DNA from: Sphingomonas caseinilytica
GTDB lineage: Bacteria; Pseudomonadota; Alphaproteobacteria; Sphingomonadales; Sphingomonadaceae
Direction of reading: 5' to 3'
Assembly (NCBI RefSeq): GCF_023516455.1
Contig: NZ_JAMGBA010000002.1
Location: forward strand, 62,001 to 126,000
DNA: 64,000 nucleotides
Shown here piece after piece: positions 48,891 through 57,632 of the stretch. Both the position numbers and the translations under genes were made by a program. The notes under the pieces are model-generated. The model did no database searches. It was not told the origin of the DNA and saw only the letters and a program-made list of their open reading frames with translations. Every line of letters begins with the position of its first letter. Within the stretch, counting starts at the first letter, position 1.

Positions 48891-49406
48891 TCAGTCGAAA
48901 TGCAGTCGCCGGTAACTGCCGCGAAAATAGAGCAGGGGGTCGAGCCGCGGCTCGAACGTCGCCTTCTTCACTTCGCCGACCAAGATGAAATGATCGCCGC
49001 CCTCATGAATGGCATGGCGAGCGCATTCGAACACCGAAAGCGAATCCATCAGCACCGGCACTCCATGTTCGCCCATGCTCCATGGCGTGCAGCCGAACCG
49101 GTCCTCGACCCGCGTCGAGAAGGTGATCGAGGCCGGCTGCTGCTCGGTCTGCAGCACATTGACCGCGAAATGCTCGGCCTCGCTCAGCGGATTGGCGCTT
49201 GCGGCCGCTTTCGACACACAAACAAGCAGCAACGGCGGATCTAGGCTGAGCGCGGTAAAGCTGTTGGCGGTAAGGCCAATCGGGTGCCCATTGCCGTCGA
49301 GGCAGGTGACCACCGTCACGCCGGTCGCAAAACATCCGAGCGCATCGCGAAGCGTTCGCGGGTCGGAGCCGGTGCGATATTCGCGAGTGACGGGCGCGTC
49401 GGTCAT
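48891..49406 (-). CDS. Flavin reductase-like domain protein (HpaC/RutF family)
   Basis: 171 residues from the ATG at 49406; ATG 49436 is possible and lies 5 nt from the phhA stop. ALGCFATGVTVVTC near residue 22 and GLTANSFTALSLDPPLLLVCV near 45 are the FMN-binding core of short-chain flavin reductases, which supply reduced flavin to two-component monooxygenases. HAIHEGGDHFILVGEV near 125 completes the fold. It follows phhA directly. PhhA itself needs a pterin rather than flavin, so the electron acceptor is a partner encoded elsewhere or an undefined process. Confidence 0.85.
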   Translation of the reverse strand: MTDAPVTREYRTGSDPRTLRDALGCFATGVTVVTCLDGNGHPIGLTANSFTALSLDPPLLLVCVSKAAASANPLSEAEHFAVNVLQTEQQPASITFSTRVEDRFGCTPWSMGEHGVPVLMDSLSVFECARHAIHEGGDHFILVGEVKKATFEPRLDPLLYFRGSYRRLHFD

Positions 49407-49441
49407 GCTTTCGCCGCCATAGCGGGCGGCGCCCATCGATG

Positions 49442-50233
49442 TCACCCCGCCAGCGCCCGCAGCCGGGCCAGGTCGAGCGCTTCCAGCTCCTCGGCTGCCT
49501 GATCCAGCGAGTCCGACACGAAATACAGCGGCTGGAAGGCGTCGCTACGGTAAGCCGTGCGCGCCGCATCCTTCAGTGTAAAGCGCGGCCGCTCGGCATC
49601 CGCCTCGAGCGCGAAATGCGCTTCGCCAAAGCTCGACGCCAGGCCCGCTCCAAGGATCTTCACCTCACCGGCTTCGCGTGCCAGGCCGAACTCCACGGTA
49701 TGCCAGTAGAGGCGGGAGATGGTTTCCCCCTGCCCGTTCGCGACCGCCGCCACTCCCAACCGTCCCATGGCCTGCATCAGCCTCGCGACCGGCTCATGCG
49801 CAAGCATCGGCACATGGCCGAAGATATCGTGGAAGCAGTCCGGCTCTTCCAGATAGTCGAGGCTATCGGCCGAGCGGATGAAATTGCCGATCGGGAAGCG
49901 TCTGTCGGCCAGCATCGCGAAAAAGGCATCGTCGGGCACCAGCCCCGACACGGAAACGCAGCGCCAGCCGCTGACCGCCTCCAACCGCTCATTGAGCCGG
50001 TCGAGATCGGGTATGCCCGGCCGGTCGAGACCGAGCTTGGGAATGCCCTCCAGGAATGGCGCCACGATCCGCGAGCCCAGGTACGGCACCTGGCGCGCGA
50101 ACAATGTGTCCCAAACGCCATGCTCGTCGGCGGTGAAGTGATCCCAATTCTGGGGAACAAGATGGACATGCCAGTCGACAGCACATCGATCTTGGGTCGC
50201 CGGAAGGTCGGTAACTTCAAACTCTCGAAACAT
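49442..50233 (-). CDS. phhA: Phenylalanine 4-hydroxylase
   Basis: 263 residues, typical of the single-domain bacterial enzyme that uses tetrahydropterin, O2 and non-heme iron to make tyrosine from phenylalanine. The iron ligands are His135 and His140 in C-F-H-D-I-F-G-H and Glu181 in W-H-T-V-E-F-G. The N-terminal DWHVHLVPQNWDHFTADEHGVWDTLF segment is typical, and no ACT regulatory domain is present. An intrinsic terminator with a Tyr-codon leader peptide lies immediately upstream, suggesting control by tyrosine supply. The pterin-recycling gene phhB and hppD are within 4.5 kb. Confidence 0.95.
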   Translation of the reverse strand: MFREFEVTDLPATQDRCAVDWHVHLVPQNWDHFTADEHGVWDTLFARQVPYLGSRIVAPFLEGIPKLGLDRPGIPDLDRLNERLEAVSGWRCVSVSGLVPDDAFFAMLADRRFPIGNFIRSADSLDYLEEPDCFHDIFGHVPMLAHEPVARLMQAMGRLGVAAVANGQGETISRLYWHTVEFGLAREAGEVKILGAGLASSFGEAHFALEADAERPRFTLKDAARTAYRSDAFQPLYFVSDSLDQAAEELEALDLARLRALAG

Positions 50234-50256
50234 TCTTCTTGTCCTTTGCGGGCAAT

Positions 50257-50288
50257 AAAAAACCCCGCCGAAGCGAGGCTTGGCGGGG
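50257..50288 (-). terminator. Attenuator terminator upstream of phhA
   Basis: On the minus strand CCCCGCC and GGCGGGG form the outer stem, with AAGC/GCTT inside (one bulged C) and a CTC loop, followed by six T residues. It ends 24 nt before the phhA start codon, so unless disrupted it should stop transcription before phhA. Confidence 0.88.
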
Positions 50289-50319
50289 CGGTGGTCCGGT
50301 GCTGGGCGCGCGAAGCCTC
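50275..50319 (-). promoter_or_regulatory. Antiterminator pairing competing with the phhA attenuator
   Basis: GAGGCTT (50319-50313), overlapping the leader stop codon, is exactly complementary to AAGCCTC (50281-50275) inside the left half of the terminator. After one C-C mismatch, GCG (50311-50309) pairs with CGC (50285-50283) in the terminator's outer arm. Forming this ten-pair helix breaks the terminator. A second option, GCGGTGG (50335-50329) with CCACCGC (50294-50288), touches only the terminator edge. Confidence 0.7.
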
Positions 50320-50407
50320 AGCCGGTCTCCACCGCGTTTCGATAATAACGGACCGCAGCCGGCAGCACGGTCGGGCAAGCTTGGTTCAAGGCGAAGTTCG
50401 CGGTCAT
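50318..50407 (-). CDS. phhA leader peptide with tandem Tyr codons
   Basis: 29 codons from an ATG at 50407 with a purine-rich AAGAGAG 6-8 nt upstream. It encodes MTANFALNQ... and ends R-Y-Y-R-N-A-V-E-T-G, with adjacent TAT TAT codons at 50347-50342. The stop codon overlaps one arm of the antiterminator, and the second Tyr codon lies 22 nt before that arm. A ribosome stalled for lack of Tyr-tRNA would leave the arm free and allow phhA transcription, whereas a ribosome reaching the stop would cover it. This matches classical amino-acid attenuation. The frame is open further upstream but no other start has a better ribosome site. Confidence 0.65.
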   Translation of the reverse strand: MTANFALNQACPTVLPAAVRYYRNAVETG

Positions 50408-50467
50408 TGCGGCTCTCTTAGGCCACAACGCTTCTGAACGGAAGATGGCTGCTCGGATTAGGCAGGC

Positions 50468-50492
50468 GGCGGCGCCAAGAGTTGGCGCCGCC
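50468..50492 (-). terminator. Hairpin after the repeat-protein gene
   Basis: GGCGGCGCCAA and TTGGCGCCGCC form a perfect 11-bp stem with a 3-nt loop, 10 nt after the stop codon of the gene at 50503-52926. No T tract follows, so termination may be partial and some phhA leader transcription could come from upstream. Confidence 0.65.
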
Positions 50493-50502
50493 TTGCTGCC
50501 GA

Positions 50503-52926
50503 TCAAATGAAGCCGAAATTATTGTAGTGATCGAGGCCCGCGTGGATCGTGCCGCCTCCGATGATGTCGAGATTGACGTCATCCCCCAGGTCATGCTCGT
50601 CGAACGCCGGGAGATCGTGCTGGACACCCAGCGTTCCGTTGAAATCATAGCCGGTGTTCCAAGCGGCAGTGTTTGTCCCGACTTTCGTCGCGGCGGACAG
50701 ATCGGACTTGGTCAGGAGATGATTCTCGTCCGTTGTCGCTTCGATCAACCAGGCCACGCCCTCGTCGATGTAATGCATCGCGCTGTTCGGGTCGTCGCTA
50801 TCGCCCACAAAGGAGCCGCCCAGATAGTTGAGCCACGACGCGATGACATCGCGGGCCAGCATATAGCGGCCGTCCTGCTGCAGCTTCTGTGACGCATCCA
50901 GGAACGACAGGGCATCGTCACGGCTGATAATGAGGACATTCTCTGTGGGGTCTGCGATCCCGTCCTTGTCCCAGTCGCCGATCATCAGATACCCGTTGAC
51001 GCCTGGCGCGCTTTCAACGTCGCCGTCGCCATCGGTGTCATGGATCTTGTACATGAGATCCGAGTTCGGGCCGAGGATTCCGAGACCTCCTGCCTTCGGG
51101 AAGGTGCCGGTATCGCCATCCCACAACTTCGACCCGTTGTTCGACCAGAATCCAGGCGTCCGCCCAAGATTGAACGCCGTGATGGCGGCATCGTCACTGT
51201 CGTTGACCGGATTATCCTCGTCATCATGGCCGGTAACGCTGACGATGTTGGTGCGCGTCTCTCCGGCAGCCAAGGTTACGTCGGTCGTATAGGTGAAGGT
51301 CCAGGTTTCGTCCGTGTCGAGCAGCGTATCGCCATCGGTGTCGCCGCCGACGAAATGCGTGCCGTCGAGCAAGTTGACGTCGTCGCTCGTATCGCCTGGC
51401 GTTCCATTGTCATCGACCAGGGTGACAAGCGTCAGCGGATCGAACGGTGACGGGCTCGTATTGGTCAACGTGTAGGTGAAGGTCACCGACGTCGTTGCCC
51501 CAGCCTGGACCTCCGTCAGCGACGCGACCTTTTCGATGTTGATAGCCGGAAGGACATCCTGCCCTGTGACCGTCGCATCATCGTCATCGCCGACTTCATT
51601 GCCTTCATCGTCCTCGGCCGTCACCGCCGCGACGTTCGTTCGCGTCTCATCGGCGTTCAGCGTCACACCGTTGACGGTATAGTTGAAGACCCAGGTTTCC
51701 GTACTGTCGAGCAGCTCGTCACCATCGGTATCGCCGCTGACATAATGAATGCCGAGTGGATTCAGAACATCCACACCCTCGAGCAGGTCGATATCGTCGG
51801 TAAGGTCGCCAGGCGTCGCGTTGTCGTCGACGAGCGCGGTGATCGTCAGCGGGTCTGTCGTCGCGCTCTGGCTGGTCAGCGTATAGGTATAGGTGATGTT
51901 GGTCGGCTGGCCCTCCAGGATCGAGACCGAACTTGCGTCCTTTACCAGCGTGATCGCCGGCGGGACATCATTGACCGTGACAACGGCATCGTCGGCATCG
52001 TCAACCGAATTGCCTTCATCGTCCTCCGCGAACACTTGCGCGACATTCGTCCGCGTTGTGCCGGCATTGAAATTTAGGTCGTTGAGCGTGACCCGGAACG
52101 TCCAGATCTCGGTGTTTTGAAGCAGTCCATCCCCGTTGTCATCGCCGCTGACATAATAGACACCGAGATTGGTGCCGCTTGCACCGGTCAGCAGATTGAT
52201 GTCGTCACTGGTATCGCCCGGCGTCGCATTGTCGTCGATGAAAGACGTCAACTTCAACGGATCGGTGTTCGAACTCTGGCTGGTGACAACATATGTGAAG
52301 GTGACGTCCGTAGGATCGCCTTCACCGAAGCTTGTCGGGTCCGCCGTCTTCTCCAAATGGATCGCGGGAAGGCCGTCACTGCCGATCTCGTCCGCCAGGA
52401 CGCGCCATTCCTCGAATCCGCCATCAGCTCCGCTGAACTCGGAATAAAGTGTAAAATAGCCGGTTTTGTCCAAGAACAATGAGGTGGGGACCCGGAAGAT
52501 ATAATCGTCGCTGCCGCTGCCCGTATGTACGTCGGTCAGCAACAATGGGTCCTCCAGGTTGAAGACCTCGTTTAGGTCGACGAAACCATTGTCGAAATCC
52601 GTTCCATCGGCCGGATCCGCGGAATAGAAGAATCTCAGATCTTCGAGCGTGATCGGGGGATCGCCCGCTGCGTTGCCTTCGTTGAGGTCGAGCCTGAACT
52701 CGTAATAATCGATGCCGCCTTCGGTGACGATCTGCATCGAACTGAACTGAACGCTGTGAGTGAAGACGCCTTCCTTGTTGTCGGCCTCGTGGGGGTCGTC
52801 GGTGTTGAAACCTTCTTCATCGTCATGCGACTGCAGACGAAGGAAGGAATCATAGTTGCCGCTGCCGGAATTTACGTCGGACACGTCGTAGAGGACGCCC
52901 GTGCCCTCGATGTTGATGAATGCCAT
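50503..52926 (-). CDS. Acidic secreted-type protein with three DUF11/DUF7507-like repeats, no signal peptide
   Basis: 807 residues, highly acidic. It begins MAFINIEGTGVLYD without a signal peptide or membrane segment. Residues 1-195 form a unique domain. Three ~130-residue repeats follow (about 200-330, 335-465, 470-590), each with a bacterial-surface Ig-like core, DDNATPGDxxDDI and a calcium-loop motif such as D-T-D-G-D-x-L-L-D. The C-terminal ~215 residues start with TPGFWSNNGSKLWDG and contain another D-T-D-G-D-G-D loop. The composition resembles type I-secreted proteins; the exporter may be the system at the window's left end, but that is inference. GGAGG lies 8 nt before the ATG. A hairpin follows the gene. 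Confidence 0.85.
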   Translation of the reverse strand: MAFINIEGTGVLYDVSDVNSGSGNYDSFLRLQSHDDEEGFNTDDPHEADNKEGVFTHSVQFSSMQIVTEGGIDYYEFRLDLNEGNAAGDPPITLEDLRFFYSADPADGTDFDNGFVDLNEVFNLEDPLLLTDVHTGSGSDDYIFRVPTSLFLDKTGYFTLYSEFSGADGGFEEWRVLADEIGSDGLPAIHLEKTADPTSFGEGDPTDVTFTYVVTSQSSNTDPLKLTSFIDDNATPGDTSDDINLLTGASGTNLGVYYVSGDDNGDGLLQNTEIWTFRVTLNDLNFNAGTTRTNVAQVFAEDDEGNSVDDADDAVVTVNDVPPAITLVKDASSVSILEGQPTNITYTYTLTSQSATTDPLTITALVDDNATPGDLTDDIDLLEGVDVLNPLGIHYVSGDTDGDELLDSTETWVFNYTVNGVTLNADETRTNVAAVTAEDDEGNEVGDDDDATVTGQDVLPAINIEKVASLTEVQAGATTSVTFTYTLTNTSPSPFDPLTLVTLVDDNGTPGDTSDDVNLLDGTHFVGGDTDGDTLLDTDETWTFTYTTDVTLAAGETRTNIVSVTGHDDEDNPVNDSDDAAITAFNLGRTPGFWSNNGSKLWDGDTGTFPKAGGLGILGPNSDLMYKIHDTDGDGDVESAPGVNGYLMIGDWDKDGIADPTENVLIISRDDALSFLDASQKLQQDGRYMLARDVIASWLNYLGGSFVGDSDDPNSAMHYIDEGVAWLIEATTDENHLLTKSDLSAATKVGTNTAAWNTGYDFNGTLGVQHDLPAFDEHDLGDDVNLDIIGGGTIHAGLDHYNNFGFI

Positions 52927-53103: not shown

Positions 53104-53352
53104 TTACAAGAGTTTGTTGATTGCCGTGGCCAGCATGACATCCCGATCGGTCAAAGCGTCAGCATCATGGGTCGTCAGCCTGAAATCGACACGATTCCAG
53201 ACACTTGCGAACTCAGGATGATGGTCCACCTTCTCGGCATGCATGGCGACCCGGGTCAGGAATCCGAACGCTTCCGAGAAATCCTTGAAGCGAAAGCTTT
53301 TGTGGAGTGACTTGCCATCGGCGCCGAGCGCCCATCCATCGGGAATATCCAT
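53104..53352 (-). CDS. phhB: Pterin-4a-carbinolamine dehydratase
   Basis: 82 residues, slightly shorter than the usual 95-100. The active-site signature is clear: [11 protein letters not shown] near residue 38 and [13 protein letters not shown] near 52. The enzyme dehydrates the 4a-hydroxytetrahydrobiopterin produced by PhhA so that the cofactor can be recycled. It lies on the same strand as phhA but is separated from it by the 2.4-kb repeat-protein gene. It is divergent from hppD. Confidence 0.92.
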
Positions 53353-53544
53353 CGGCGCCCCTTATCACCTCCCTGCAATAATTTCCTGTCCTACGGGATG
53401 AGGCGGGGCTAGTGGGGCGGCGATATGGCCCGCCTGCAATTCGCCCGGTCACGAATGCCCACTGCCGGGACGTGACTTGAGCGGACGCCCATGTCAGTGC
53501 GAACATTGGTGAAGATTCGCGGGTCGAAGACTGGAGAAAATGCC

Positions 53545-54648
53545 ATGGTCACCCTAGCCCCTGCCCCCGAGCTCGGCCCGCTGGGCCTTGAGAATCCGAT
53601 GGGCACCGACGGCTTCGAGTTCGTCGAATATGCAGCGCCGGATCCTGAACTGCTGCGCAGCCTGTTCGCCAAGATGGGCTTCCCGGCCGTCGCCAAGCAC
53701 AAGCGCAAGAATGTCACGCTGCACCGTCAGGGCGATATCAACTTCATCATCAATGCCGAGCCGGGCAGCCTTGCGGAGAAATTCGCTGAACTGCACGGTC
53801 CCTGCGCCTGCGCGATGGCTTTCCGGGTCAAGGATGCGAAGCATGCCCACGACCGCGCGATGAGCCTTGGCGCTACCGACGTTCACAACGATGTCGCGCC
53901 CGGCGAAATGGACATTCCCGCAATCGAAGGAATTGGCGGGTCGATCCTCTACCTCGTCGACCGTTACGGTGACAAAGGCACGATCTACGATGTCGATTTC
54001 GATTTCTATCCGGACGCGGCCCAGAAGGAAGCAAGCCACGCCTCGAACCTCACCTATCTCGACCACCTGACCCACAATGTGAATCGCGGGCGGATGGACC
54101 ACTGGGCGGAATTCTATGAGCGGCTCTTCAACTTCCGCGAGATCCGCTACTTCGACATTGAAGGCAAGGTCACCGGGCTCTTTTCCAAGGCGATGACCTC
54201 GCCCGATGGAAAGATCCGGATCCCACTCAACGAGAGCCAGGACGACAAGAGCCAGATCGAGGAGTTCCTGCGCGAGTATAAGGGCGAGGGCATCCAGCAC
54301 ATCGCGCTCGGCAGCTCCGACATTTACCGCACCGTCGATACGCTCCGCGACCGCGGCATTCCGTTCCAGGACACGCCCGATACCTATTACGAGCTGGTCG
54401 ACGAGCGCGTGAAGGGTCATGGCGAACCGACCGCGGAGCTTGAGAAGCGCCGCATCCTCGTCGACGGCGCGCCGACCGAAGGGCAGGGCTTGTTGCTGCA
54501 GATCTTCACCCAGAATGTGATCGGTCCGATCTTCTTCGAGATCATCCAGCGCAAGGGCAACGAAGGTTTTGGCGAAGGCAATTTCAAGGCGCTGTTTGAG
54601 AGCATCGAACTCGACCAGATCCGCCGCGGAGTGATCGACGCTGAGTAA
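53545..54648 (+). CDS. hppD: 4-hydroxyphenylpyruvate dioxygenase
   Basis: 367 residues from the ATG at 53545 (GGAG upstream); an in-frame ATG at 53491 would add 18 residues. It converts 4-hydroxyphenylpyruvate to homogentisate in tyrosine breakdown. The two VOC-type halves are visible, and the three iron ligands lie in L-D-H-L-T-H-N-V (first His), G-I-Q-H-I-A-L (second His) and F-F-E-I-I-Q-R-K-G (Glu near 344). With phhA and phhB it links phenylalanine to homogentisate. The next steps (homogentisate dioxygenase onward) are not in the window. Confidence 0.96.
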   Translation: MVTLAPAPELGPLGLENPMGTDGFEFVEYAAPDPELLRSLFAKMGFPAVAKHKRKNVTLHRQGDINFIINAEPGSLAEKFAELHGPCACAMAFRVKDAKHAHDRAMSLGATDVHNDVAPGEMDIPAIEGIGGSILYLVDRYGDKGTIYDVDFDFYPDAAQKEASHASNLTYLDHLTHNVNRGRMDHWAEFYERLFNFREIRYFDIEGKVTGLFSKAMTSPDGKIRIPLNESQDDKSQIEEFLREYKGEGIQHIALGSSDIYRTVDTLRDRGIPFQDTPDTYYELVDERVKGHGEPTAELEKRRILVDGAPTEGQGLLLQIFTQNVIGPIFFEIIQRKGNEGFGEGNFKALFESIELDQIRRGVIDAE

Positions 54649-55087
54649 CAATCCTGCCGACGCTCTGGCCGAGCGCGTGGCCTTTGCGATGCTGGCCAAT
54701 GAAGGCACCGGAAAGGCCTGGGGTATCCAGATCGAGGAAGCCCGAGAAGGCTATTCGCGCATCCGGATGAAGCTCACCCCCGACATGCTGAATGGGCATG
54801 GGAAGGCGCATGGCGGGATGGTCTATGCGCTGGCGGACACGGCATTCGCCTATGCCTGCAACAGCCGCAACGTCAGGACCGTCGGCGCGCAGGCGACGAT
54901 GGTGTTCCTGGACGGCGCCGAACTGGGCGAAGTGCTTGTCGCCGAAGCACAGGAACAGGCCCTTGTCGTCCGCTCAGGCGTCTACAATGTCAGCGTGCGG
55001 ACCGACGCCGGAAGGCCGGTGGCCGAGTTCCAGGGATTTTCGAGATCGCTTGGCGGTCCCTATATCGAGACCGGAGACGAAGATTGA
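54641..55087 (+). CDS. paaI: PaaI-type hotdog-fold thioesterase
   Basis: 148 residues if translation starts at the CTG at 54641, which overlaps the hppD stop and has GGAG 9 nt upstream; its [12 protein letters not shown] fits the usual PaaI start. The first ordinary start in frame is GTG 54677, giving 136 residues. The active region [17 protein letters not shown] is near residue 50, with the catalytic Asp in ADTAF. PaaI removes CoA from hydroxylated phenylacetyl-CoA dead-end products. It is followed at once by a thiolase and paaD, supporting a phenylacetate-related role. Confidence 0.82.
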
Positions 55088-56286
55088 CCGATGCCTACAT
55101 CTGCGACGCCATCCGGACGCCCATCGGCCGCTACGCCGGGGCTTTGAAGGAAGTGCGGCCCGACGACCTTGCGGCCATTCCGCTGAGGGCGCTGAAGGAA
55201 CGCAATCAAGGCATCGACTGGTCGGCGCTAGACGACATCATCCTCGGCTGCGCCAACCAGGCGGGCGAAGATAATCGCAATGTCGCGCGCATGGCCGCGC
55301 TATTGGCTGGCCTTGGCACCACCGCGCCAGGCACCACGATCAACCGCCTTTGCGGCTCTGGCTTGGACGCGGTGGCAATGGCAGCCCGAGCGATCAAGGC
55401 CGGCGAAGCCGACCTGATCGTCGCCGGCGGCGTCGAAAGCATGACCCGAGCGCCGTTCGTAATGCCCAAGGCGGAAGGGCCGTTCAGCAGGGCCAATGCC
55501 ATCTACGACACCACCATCGGCTGGCGCTTCGTCAACAAGAAGCTGAAGGCGGAGTTCGGCATCGATTCCATGCCGGAGACCGCCGAAAATGTGGCCGAGG
55601 AATTCCAGGTCAGCCGCGAAGACCAGGACCGGTTCGCTGCGGAGAGCCAGCGGCGCGCCGCCGCCGCCCAGGCCAATGGCCGCCTCGCCGCCGAAATCGT
55701 CCCCGTCACCATCCCGCAGCGGAAGGGCGATCCCATCATCGTCGACCACGACGAGCATCCGCGCGAAACCAGCGCCGAAGCGCTCGCCAAATTGAAGCCC
55801 ATCGTTCGCGAGGACGGCTCCATCACCGCCGGCAATGCCAGCGGCGTCAACGACGGCGCTGCGGCACTGATCGTCGCCTCGCAAGCAGCGGTCGAAAAAT
55901 ATGGCCTTACCCCGCGAGCCAAGGTTCTAGGTGGCGCGGTCGCTGGCGTTCCTCCCCGGATCATGGGGATCGGCCCCGCGCCGGCGACGAACAAGCTGCT
56001 TGAGCGGTTGAGCTTGCAAGTGAGCGACCTGGACGTCGTCGAACTGAACGAGGCCTTCGCTGCCCAGGGCCTTGCTGTGATGCGCCAGCTTGGACTTCCC
56101 GACGACGCCGCCCATGTGAATCCTAACGGCGGCGCGATAGCGCTCGGCCATCCACTCGGCATGTCAGGCGCCCGGCTGGCGATGACCGCTACCGAGGAAT
56201 TGCAACGCAGCGGCGGCCGCTACGCGCTGGCCACCATGTGCATTGGCGTCGGCCAGGGCATCGCGCTGGCGCTGGAGCGCGTGTGA
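55084..56286 (+). CDS. Acetyl-CoA acyltransferase, 3-oxoadipyl-CoA thiolase-like
   Basis: 400 residues starting at a TTG that overlaps the preceding stop (TTGA). Thiolase active-site parts are intact: the nucleophilic Cys in N-R-L-C-G-S-G (about 90), G-G-V-E-S-M, N-E-A-F-A (about 319), [11 protein letters not shown] (about 350, His) and the second Cys in [10 protein letters not shown] (about 386). The N-terminal [10 protein letters not shown] is typical of the PcaF/PaaJ branch that releases acetyl-CoA and succinyl-CoA from 3-oxoadipyl-CoA. It lies between paaI and paaD. Confidence 0.88.
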
Positions 56287-56720
56287 GCGAGGCGGGCATC
56301 CGCGCCGTCCTGGAGACGGTGATGGATCCGGAAATCCCGGTCGTGTCGGTGATGGATCTCGGCATCGTTCGCGACGTTCGCCCCGACAAAGTGACGATCA
56401 CGCCGACCTATTCGGGTTGCCCGGCGACCGATGTGATCGAACGAACGGTCCGCGAAGCGCTCGATGCCAACGGCTATCGCAATGTCGCAATCGAAACCGT
56501 GCTGACGCCGCCCTGGACCACCGATTGGATCAGCGACGAAGGCAAGGAACGGCTGCGCGAATATGGCATCGCCCCGCCCGAACTAACCAAGGCGGCTACC
56601 TGCCCGCAATGCGGCTCAACCGACACGGAAGAAGTAAGCCGCTTCGGCTCAACGCCCTGCAAAGCCCAATGGCGCTGCAAGGATTGTCTGGAACCGTTCG
56701 ACCGGTTCAAATGCCACTAG
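56283..56720 (+). CDS. paaD: Phenylacetyl-CoA epoxidase maturation subunit PaaD
   Basis: 145 residues from a GTG overlapping the thiolase stop (GTGA). The N-terminal ~95 residues are a MIP18/DUF59-like domain ([18 protein letters not shown] and TYSGCPATD). The C-terminus has a zinc-binding set C-P-Q-C-G ... [10 protein letters not shown], characteristic of PaaD and absent from other DUF59 proteins. PaaD is thought to help deliver the iron centre to the PaaABCE epoxidase. The epoxidase genes are not adjacent here, which is unusual. Confidence 0.88.
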
Positions 56721-57632
56721 CTAGCCGCATTGCCCCCTGTGCAGCAGCTTGTGATCGGCCAGCACGAGCGCGACCATTGCTTCGACTACCGGCGCACCAC
56801 GAATTCCGACGCAAGGATCGTGACGGCCGCCGATGCCGATGCTCGACGTCGGCTTGAAAGCCACGCGAACGACGATCGCCTTGCCGGTAGAGATGCCGCC
56901 ATCGATGCCGCTGGCCTTTTTGGCCTCCATGCTCTCGCTGCCGCGAGCGCGACCAGCGGCGAAGCCTTCGCCGATCTCGACACCTTTGACGGCGTTAATC
57001 CCCATGCAGGCTGCTGCAAGTTCCGCATCCAGCTTGGCATAAATGGGCGCGCCCCATCCGATCGGAACGCCGGTCGCAACGCATTCGATGATCGCACCTA
57101 AGCTGTCGCTGCCGGATCGAGCCTCGTCGAGCATCTCTTCCCAGCGGCTCTCGTCCTGCTCGCCGCCAATCTCGACCACGGCGGCCGCGATGTTCACCTC
57201 CGGGATCACCAGCCTCGCCACCGCCCCGCCGGCTACCCGCATCGCGGTTTCTCGGGCAGACGCCCGACCGCCGCCGCGCGGATCGCGAAAGCCATATTTG
57301 GCGTCGTAGGCAGCGTCGGCATGGCCAGGTCTTGGAGGCAGGTTGGAATAGTCGGCGGATCGCGCGTCGACATTGTCGATCATCATCGCGATCGGCGTCC
57401 CGGTCGTCCGGCCCTCATAGGTGCCGGACAAGATCCTGACCCGATCCGGCTCCTGCCGCGGCGAGACATTCTTCGACGTCCCCGGCCGCCTGGCATCGAG
57501 AAAGCGTTGTACCCAAGGCTCGTCGAGCTCCAGCCCCGGCGGGCAGCCGTCGACCACGCATCCGATTGCGGGCCCGTGGCTCTCGCCCCAGGTTGTCAGC
57601 CGCAACATATGACCGAAGCTGTTGATGCTCAT
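56721..57632 (-). CDS. aroC: Chorismate synthase, compact form
   Basis: 303 residues against the usual 350-365. It makes chorismate from EPSP using reduced FMN. Core motifs remain: [53 protein letters not shown] and [10 protein letters not shown]. The missing parts are loops: about 25 residues after ARLVIPEV, about 8 before GGIS, about 14 between KPTSSI and GRHDP, and the C-terminal tail. It is the last gene of a coupled aroG-type, aroA, aroC operon. A second, full-length aroC elsewhere is likely but cannot be checked here. Confidence 0.88.

Follow-up and report, generated by a model that had tools for sequence, protein, structure and literature searches.

The window analysed here, a 64,000-nucleotide stretch of a Sphingomonas caseinilytica contig, carries on its minus strand a short reading frame with adjacent tyrosine codons, an intrinsic terminator and the phenylalanine hydroxylase gene phhA, in that order. 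The features needed for the argument, listed by position, are as follows.

49442..50233, minus strand: phhA, phenylalanine 4-monooxygenase, the putatively controlled gene (start ATG at 50233; assigned by profile matches)
50257..50288, minus strand: intrinsic terminator, CCCCGCC-AAGCCTCGCTTC-GGCGGGG-TTTTTT (sequence and folding)
50288..50294, minus strand: strand D, CCACCGC, flush with the terminator and having one base (50288) in common with it
50313..50319, minus strand: GAGGCTT, overlapping the leader stop codon, an antiterminator strand in an earlier proposal
50318..50407, minus strand: leader peptide reading frame of 29 codons, MTANFALNQACPTVLPAAVRYYRNAVETG (read from the sequence)
50329..50335, minus strand: strand A, GCGGTGG, the codons that directly follow the Tyr run; putative antiterminator strand gated by the ribosome
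50342..50347, minus strand: two adjacent Tyr codons (TAT TAT), proposed sensor (sequence and conservation)
50417..50447, minus strand: promoter-like block CATCTTCCGTTCAG-N-CCTAAG (putative promoter and start site)

Organization of the locus

The best NCBIfam match of the phhA product is Phe4hydrox_mono (E 5e-75), at 251.9 bits slightly under the cut-off of 264.75, and Pfam Biopterin_H is matched over its cut-off; the aromatic amino acid hydroxylase family has one match in the genome, of the phenylalanine 4-monooxygenase type. Upstream, the leader frame runs from its ATG (50407-50405) to a TGA stop codon (50320-50318), and is followed by the terminator, in which the left arm CCCCGCC (50288-50282) and the right arm GGCGGGG precede six T residues (50262-50257). 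This hairpin folds at -20.4 kcal/mol, compared with -10.0 +/- 2.4 kcal/mol in 500 shuffles, none of which (0/500) was as low. The minus strand also reads AAGCCTC at 50281-50275 and CGC at 50285-50283. An initial reading made from the letters alone (hereafter the sequence-only reading) had placed the leader, its Tyr codons and stop, GAGGCTT, AAGCCTC, CGC, the terminator and phhA, and each of these positions is correct to the base.

The end of the -10-like hexamer in the promoter-like block lies 9 bases upstream of the leader ATG, which may leave the leader mRNA with a 5' UTR of close to zero length. A loose pattern of the block precedes the leader in 41 of the 64 unique leaders compared below, a few of these matches probably arising by chance. 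The upstream neighbour encodes an 807-residue repeat protein (50503-52926), such that the leader-terminator region lies between the repeat gene and phhA. At the other end, a flavin reductase gene (48891-49445, minus strand) overlaps the phhA 3' end; the two genes may share one transcript under the same putative attenuator. Directly after the -35 position stands the heptamer CGTTCAG (50434-50440, minus strand), which recurs before many leaders; in a few leaders of clade c3 described below (L147, L148, L149) it is one half-site of an inverted repeat that may be an operator. As a special operator it was set aside, as the window holds 14 copies against 9.5 expected and 5 of 100 shuffles hold as many.

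Conservation and phylogenetic distribution

The genomes compared include those of Sphingomonas cremea, S. sediminicola, S. daechungensis, S. edaphi, S. rhizophila and Sphingomicrobium species. phhA is present in 65 of the 71 genomes of the window's genus (69 loci) and in 167 of 199 sampled genomes of the family. A leader frame and an intrinsic terminator precede the gene at 66 of the 69 genus loci (65 recognized by script and one, L153, whose T run is interrupted, by eye and then parsed), and in 64 of the 65 phhA-bearing genus genomes. The loci that lack this layout are both copies in genome G225 (L155 and L157) and the second copy in G209 (L156). Two genomes have a pair of phhA copies, each with its own Tyr attenuator: G203 (L012, L014) and G257 (L127, L128).

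All 64 unique leaders keep the reading frame, the stop codon and the Tyr codons, and the remaining peptide is variable. Within the last 16 codons, 4 leaders have one Tyr codon, 24 have two, 34 have three and 2 have four, with an adjacent pair in 53 of the 64; over whole leaders TAT is used 145 times and TAC 25 times. In a few leaders (L100, L007, L008, L104) the one or two Tyr codons are separated from strand A by a codon for Cys or Trp, and sensing may be weaker or mixed in these. Furthermore, the non-coding bases that follow the leader stop codon (TGACGCGCG) hardly vary within clades c2 and c3; no pairing partner stood out for them, and they may mark a site of pausing or a context that slows translation termination.

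Outside the genus, the phhA loci fetched mostly have no leader and terminator, the exceptions being two genera, g45 and g54. The Tyr-codon leader and terminator that the sequence-only reading had described before phhA are conserved across three genera, while the peptide otherwise varies. A covariance model built from 67 sequences finds the window at E 1.1e-20 and, run over 397 family genomes, yields 22 strong sites (E <= 3.2e-8) in 21 genomes: 11 in the window's own genus, 2 in g45 and 8 in g54. Every strong site checked for adjacency to phhA has the gene next to it (21/21; 14 by tblastn and 7 by phhA position), the one strong site outside these checks being the second site in G431. In a PhhA tree of 89 loci, the attenuated copies fall in one clade of 78 (support 0.971), which also includes L155 and L156; these two copies without attenuator would most simply represent losses.

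Control of further genes by the same element found no support among the nine next-best model sites that were fetched (L215-L223, E 9.5e-7 to 2.2e-5), which have neither a phhA match nor a Tyr-rich leader. One of these weak sites, L216, lies in a stretch with a 34-residue reading frame in which Tyr is encoded twice. The window's own genome has a second site, which (C1:672618, E 2.1e-4) covers only model positions 78-112, at the terminator end.

Pairing of strand A and its covariation

A best-helix search in 68 leaders compared the codons after the Tyr run with everything through the left arm of the terminator. In 45 leaders the end of the best strand A helix lies between -3 and +2 bases from the terminator core, in 22 the helix overlaps the core by at least 3 bases, and L150 is the only leader with no good helix; in the window the helix abuts the terminator. 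The pairing differs between clades. For example, clade c1, to which the window belongs, pairs GCGGTGG with CCACCGC, and clade c2 uses either CGAGGTTGG:CCAACCTCG or GGAGGCTGG:CCAGCCTCC. In clade c3, GGTGGGG pairs with the terminator arm CCCCGCC itself, and in the sister-branch relatives and g45, CCGGGCGG pairs with CCGCCCGG. All eight further sister-branch leaders that were parsed likewise pair strand A with the terminator arm, through 7-9 pairs and with an overlap of 9-10 bases. This direct-arm design is probably ancestral, being shared by the sister branch and g45.

Compensatory changes accompany these pairings. Within the window's clade, GCGATGG:CCATCGC (L104, L008) stands against GCGGTGG:CCACCGC, and on the sister branch CCGGACGGG:CCCGTCCGG in L203 is matched by CCGGGCGGG:CCCGCCCGG in L213. 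Among the 23 c2 loci, 13 have C-G and 8 have G-C at the outer pair; at the inner pair, 13 have T-A and 8 have C-G (the remaining cells are T-G, A-G, A-C and C-A). These counts were scripted within c2 because the MAFFT alignment misplaces strand D between clades, and their anchoring of D on a CCT[C/T] motif leans towards pairing. A strand swap is free of this anchor: same-subtype combinations average -19.2 and -19.8 kcal/mol (means that include within-subtype swaps; own D alone gives -19.6 and -19.4 kcal/mol), compared with -14.5 and -10.4 kcal/mol between subtypes, so that exchanging strands between subtypes costs about 5 and 9 kcal/mol. Moreover, the inner c2 change alters the peptide (GTT to GCT, Val to Ala), suggesting that the RNA is what is kept.

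Comparison with shuffled strands points the same way in two clades. Over the 20 loci of the window's clade, A:D averages -16.5 kcal/mol against -9.9 kcal/mol for shuffled D (P 0.04), and in c3 strand A with the left arm reaches -16.9 kcal/mol against -9.4 kcal/mol (P 0.04), the A:D pairing of c3 being no stronger than shuffle. In eight mixed other leaders neither A:D nor A with the arm (P 0.12) exceeds shuffle. That strand A and strand D form the antiterminator in the window itself appears somewhat more likely than not.

The sequence-only reading had assigned this role to a different helix, GAGGCTT with AAGCCTC, and had named conserved Tyr codons and compensatory changes in relatives as its check. 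The comparison with relatives bears out the Tyr codons and the leader, and the compensatory changes fall in the strand A pairing instead of the helix named. Both cores, GAGGC and GCCTC, are present in 8 of the 9 window-subclade sequences; none of 50 other sequences (11 c1, 23 c2 and 16 c3) has the two together, and the full seven-base match is the best helix in the window only, among the nine subclade sequences. The pairing is also no stronger than with a shuffled strand (P 0.18). GAGGCTT:AAGCCTC was accordingly dropped as a conserved antiterminator; in the window it may still contribute.

Ribosome position and order of folding

A ribosome reaches about 12-13 bases beyond its A-site codon, the distance used for the ribosome positions considered here. 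Strand A starts 16-24 bases before the leader end, so a ribosome at the stop codon should cover it and one at the first Tyr codon should leave it free. When the RNA is folded without the right arm, occupancy of the terminator's left arm exceeds one half in 30 of 68 leaders for a ribosome at the first Tyr codon (first-Tyr state), in 29 for one at the last (last-Tyr state) and in 2 for one at the stop codon (stop state); for the window the respective occupancies are 0.10, 0.52 and 0.29. Once the right arm is present, the mean equilibrium probability of the terminator over the 68 leaders is 0.85, 0.91 and 0.94 in the same three states, and only 7 leaders drop under one half when the ribosome is at the first Tyr codon. 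Whatever the design, most leaders favour the terminator at equilibrium, and the scheme therefore depends on folding order, with the antiterminator forming first. In the window, the A:D hairpin and the terminator fold together at equilibrium; as a proof of exclusivity, equilibrium folding fails there and in most other leaders. A hairpin of the 1:2 type, between post-Tyr codons and strand A, exceeds shuffle in 13 of 14 EVG-type c2 leaders and 13 of 16 c3 leaders; none of the 9 leaders in the c2 EAG group does so, nor any of the 9 in the window's subclade, where a different stretch was folded.

These foldings bear on the alternative that fares best, in which the leader is the same Tyr attenuator and the window's antiterminator is GAGGCTT:AAGCCTC, involving the upper stem, with A:D serving as a protecting hairpin in the absence of a ribosome. 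The helix comprises 8 pairs including one T-G (-14.9 kcal/mol), and it is this pairing that the folded prefix shows when a ribosome at the last Tyr codon leaves the window's left arm about half occupied. However, the arrangement needs a stall at the last Tyr codon, since a stall at the first Tyr codon lets A:D form and leaves the arm of the terminator free, and the strict closeness of D to the terminator would be superfluous were A:D merely protective. Together with the confinement of the core to one subclade and its failure to exceed shuffle, this makes the alternative unlikely.

From anatomy, conservation, covariation, phylogeny and gene loss, we consider it highly probable that the leader region attenuates phhA transcription by a ribosome-mediated mechanism that responds to charged tRNA-Tyr. 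Transcription would start at the leader ATG or a few bases upstream. With ample Tyr-tRNA, the ribosome would reach the stop codon and cover strand A (50335-50329), the terminator would fold and phhA would be off. With scarce Tyr-tRNA, the ribosome would stall at the Tyr codons, leaving strand A free to pair with strand D (50294-50288), and read-through would follow. In c3, a sister clade, and in relatives on the sister branch, strand A would pair with the terminator's own left arm, as in a textbook antiterminator. In the window's clade A:D abuts the terminator, so that termination would have to be blocked by loss of the closing pair and by crowding at the RNA exit channel. This steric block is the weakest step of the scheme; alternatively, the partial effect at the last Tyr codon might block termination in the abutting design.

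Tyrosine supply and the role of PhhA

Several genes of aromatic amino acid metabolism lie upstream of the leader in the window:

53104-53352: pterin carbinolamine dehydratase (PCD), between phhA and aroC/aroA
53491-54648: HPPD, between phhA and aroC/aroA
56721-57632, minus strand: aroC, 303 residues
57629-59047, minus strand: aroA, adjoining aroC with no dehydratase between

TyrA (PF02153) is matched over its cut-off in 4 of the 71 genus genomes versus 171 of 199 in the family sample, and the window's genome has no PF02153 match, a homology search that a non-homologous replacement could escape. The prephenate dehydratase domain PF00800 is found in 14 of 71 genus genomes versus 189 of 199 family genomes. 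No match to it was found in the window's genome or in 57 of the 71, predicting phenylalanine auxotrophy or an unknown route; chorismate synthase is present in the window's genome. In two sister-branch relatives, G212 (L225) and G264 (L224), the attenuator and phhA stand at the end of an aromatic cluster, in the order aroA-pheA-aroC-aroB-aroE-attenuator-phhA. The pheA of this cluster encodes a short prephenate dehydratase of 174-176 residues with the catalytic domain only (L225:1300-1830, L224:5692-6216), leaving no room for the regulatory ACT domain usual in this enzyme. The window's aroC misses the middle of its family profile (matches to 1-153 and 180-349 of 351), and between HPPD and aroC lie three plus-strand reading frames (54677-56720) that by eye resemble a thioesterase, a thiolase and a PaaD-like protein and are perhaps aromatic catabolism genes.

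As TyrA is mostly lost and phhA is linked to the aro cluster in relatives, PhhA probably serves tyrosine synthesis, and the predicted derepression under tyrosine shortage gains weight on the same grounds. We regard this biosynthetic role, the formation of tyrosine from phenylalanine, as likely from the gene content, and the purpose of the attenuator would be to supply tyrosine by this step in a lineage that has mostly lost TyrA. There is a parallel in Dyella and Legionella, where phenylalanine hydroxylase is stated, in an excerpt of PMC7311316, to be a tyrosine biosynthetic enzyme in the absence of a recognized TyrA.

Alternatively, the attenuator could be real and PhhA mainly catabolic, tyrosine shortage gating entry into degradation. 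HPPD consumes the product of tyrosine transamination. Its gene scores over the cut-off in 64 of the 71 genomes of the genus; in the window it sits close to phhA, as does that of PCD, making a catabolic share of PhhA possible. Induction by tyrosine shortage would nevertheless have the wrong sign for a catabolic gene, and the widespread absence of TyrA and the aro-cluster linkage in two relatives also speak against a mainly catabolic PhhA, which we hold to be improbable.

Three TyrA-positive genomes have an attenuated phhA copy (G212, G256 and G209, the TyrA match of G209 being split over two frames), and all nine phhA loci fetched from five other genera, in genomes with no TyrA match, have no leader or terminator; at three more loci, L074, L078 and L079, a Tyr leader is likewise absent. 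The TyrA-positive attenuated genomes and the unattenuated loci of TyrA-less genomes weigh against a simple story of loss and compensation. In its favour, both phhA copies of the TyrA-bearing G225 have no attenuator, nor does the second copy of G209, which adjoins the split TyrA match. G209 also encodes a shikimate dehydrogenase domain and phenylalanine hydroxylase in one 646-residue reading frame (L227:1313-3253, minus strand), beside the split TyrA match. A tentative history, which we put forward as possible rather than probable, is that a hydroxylase best known for its part in phenylalanine breakdown became the tyrosine step after TyrA loss in a sphingomonad lineage, and that the attenuator, which would be the first one tuned to tyrosine, was acquired once, in the ancestor of the three genera; its register would then have changed, leaving the window's clade with a helix that butts against the terminator.

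Other readings of the leader

Free Trp stalls translation on TnaC, and by analogy the leader peptide, or free tyrosine bound by the ribosome, could stall translation such that the signal would not be tRNA charging. The Tyr codon runs lie near the end of a short peptide, and a nearly constant stretch surrounds the stop codon in c2 and c3, both as such stalling would have it. Yet the residues around the Tyr run and the C-terminus are clade-specific (AVETG, EVGIG, EAGTS, ARAGPI), and the pairing is preserved through substitutions with an effect on the peptide, such as the Val to Ala change above, which indicates selection on RNA and not on the peptide; peptide-dependent stalling is therefore very improbable. 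Intergenic terminators are common, and the hairpin might simply end the upstream unit or insulate phhA, the Tyr codons being a coincidence of a single lineage, a reading that is hardly tenable, since every unique leader keeps its frame, its stop and its Tyr codons and the leader-terminator-phhA order persists beside varying upstream genes (aroE in G212, the repeat protein gene in the window).

Comparison with known systems

The preferred reading, a tRNA-Tyr-sensing attenuator of phhA, belongs to a familiar kind. In proteobacteria, the trp, his, phe, thr, ilv and leu attenuators combine a leader reading frame, clustered codons for the product amino acid, alternative pairings and a terminator; the element here shares these features, its alternative pairings being putative. 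The present system differs from these in its Tyr codons, in its phenylalanine hydroxylase target and, in the window's clade, in an antiterminator that abuts the terminator rather than overlapping it. Classical ribosome-mediated attenuation is described in part in PMC11802643 and PMC1262725. The nearest relative in kind is AroR of Corynebacterium glutamicum, upstream of aroF, a ribosome-mediated aromatic leader that includes a Tyr codon; according to excerpts of PMC11802643, however, its leader reads Phe-Tyr-Phe, is enhanced under Phe limitation and is reportedly indifferent to Tyr. Another candidate, uORFC-8-2 before cysS in Rhodobacterales, is likewise an alphaproteobacterial leader with two tandem sensing codons and proposed ribosome-mediated attenuation, but its codons are for Cys and its target is a tRNA synthetase gene (PMC8632094, in excerpt).

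No T-box is among the eight Rfam matches over 49900-50700 (E up to 5), all of which lie below their gathering scores. The tyrosine T-box also couples the charging of tRNA-Tyr to termination; it does so by binding the tRNA directly and has no leader peptide, whereas a leader peptide is the proposed sensor here. Pseudomonas phhA belongs to the same enzyme family and follows the opposite regulatory logic, being controlled by the protein regulator PhhR and induced by phenylalanine for catabolism. For tyrosine, the TyrR repressor acts in enteric bacteria.

A search of the open-licence PMC literature, in which subscription papers are mostly not included, returned no attenuator for tyrosine and none of any kind for phhA. 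The kind of system is old, and its amino acid and its target appear to be new. Attenuators have been worked out for several amino acids, and for tyrosine the RNA mechanism named in excerpts of PMC1262725 is control by T-boxes. Against this background, the more than 60 natural variants assembled here, with several pairing designs on one tree, provide a comparative set for studying how an attenuator changes register without loss of function, and for asking if termination can be blocked by a hairpin that directly abuts the terminator.
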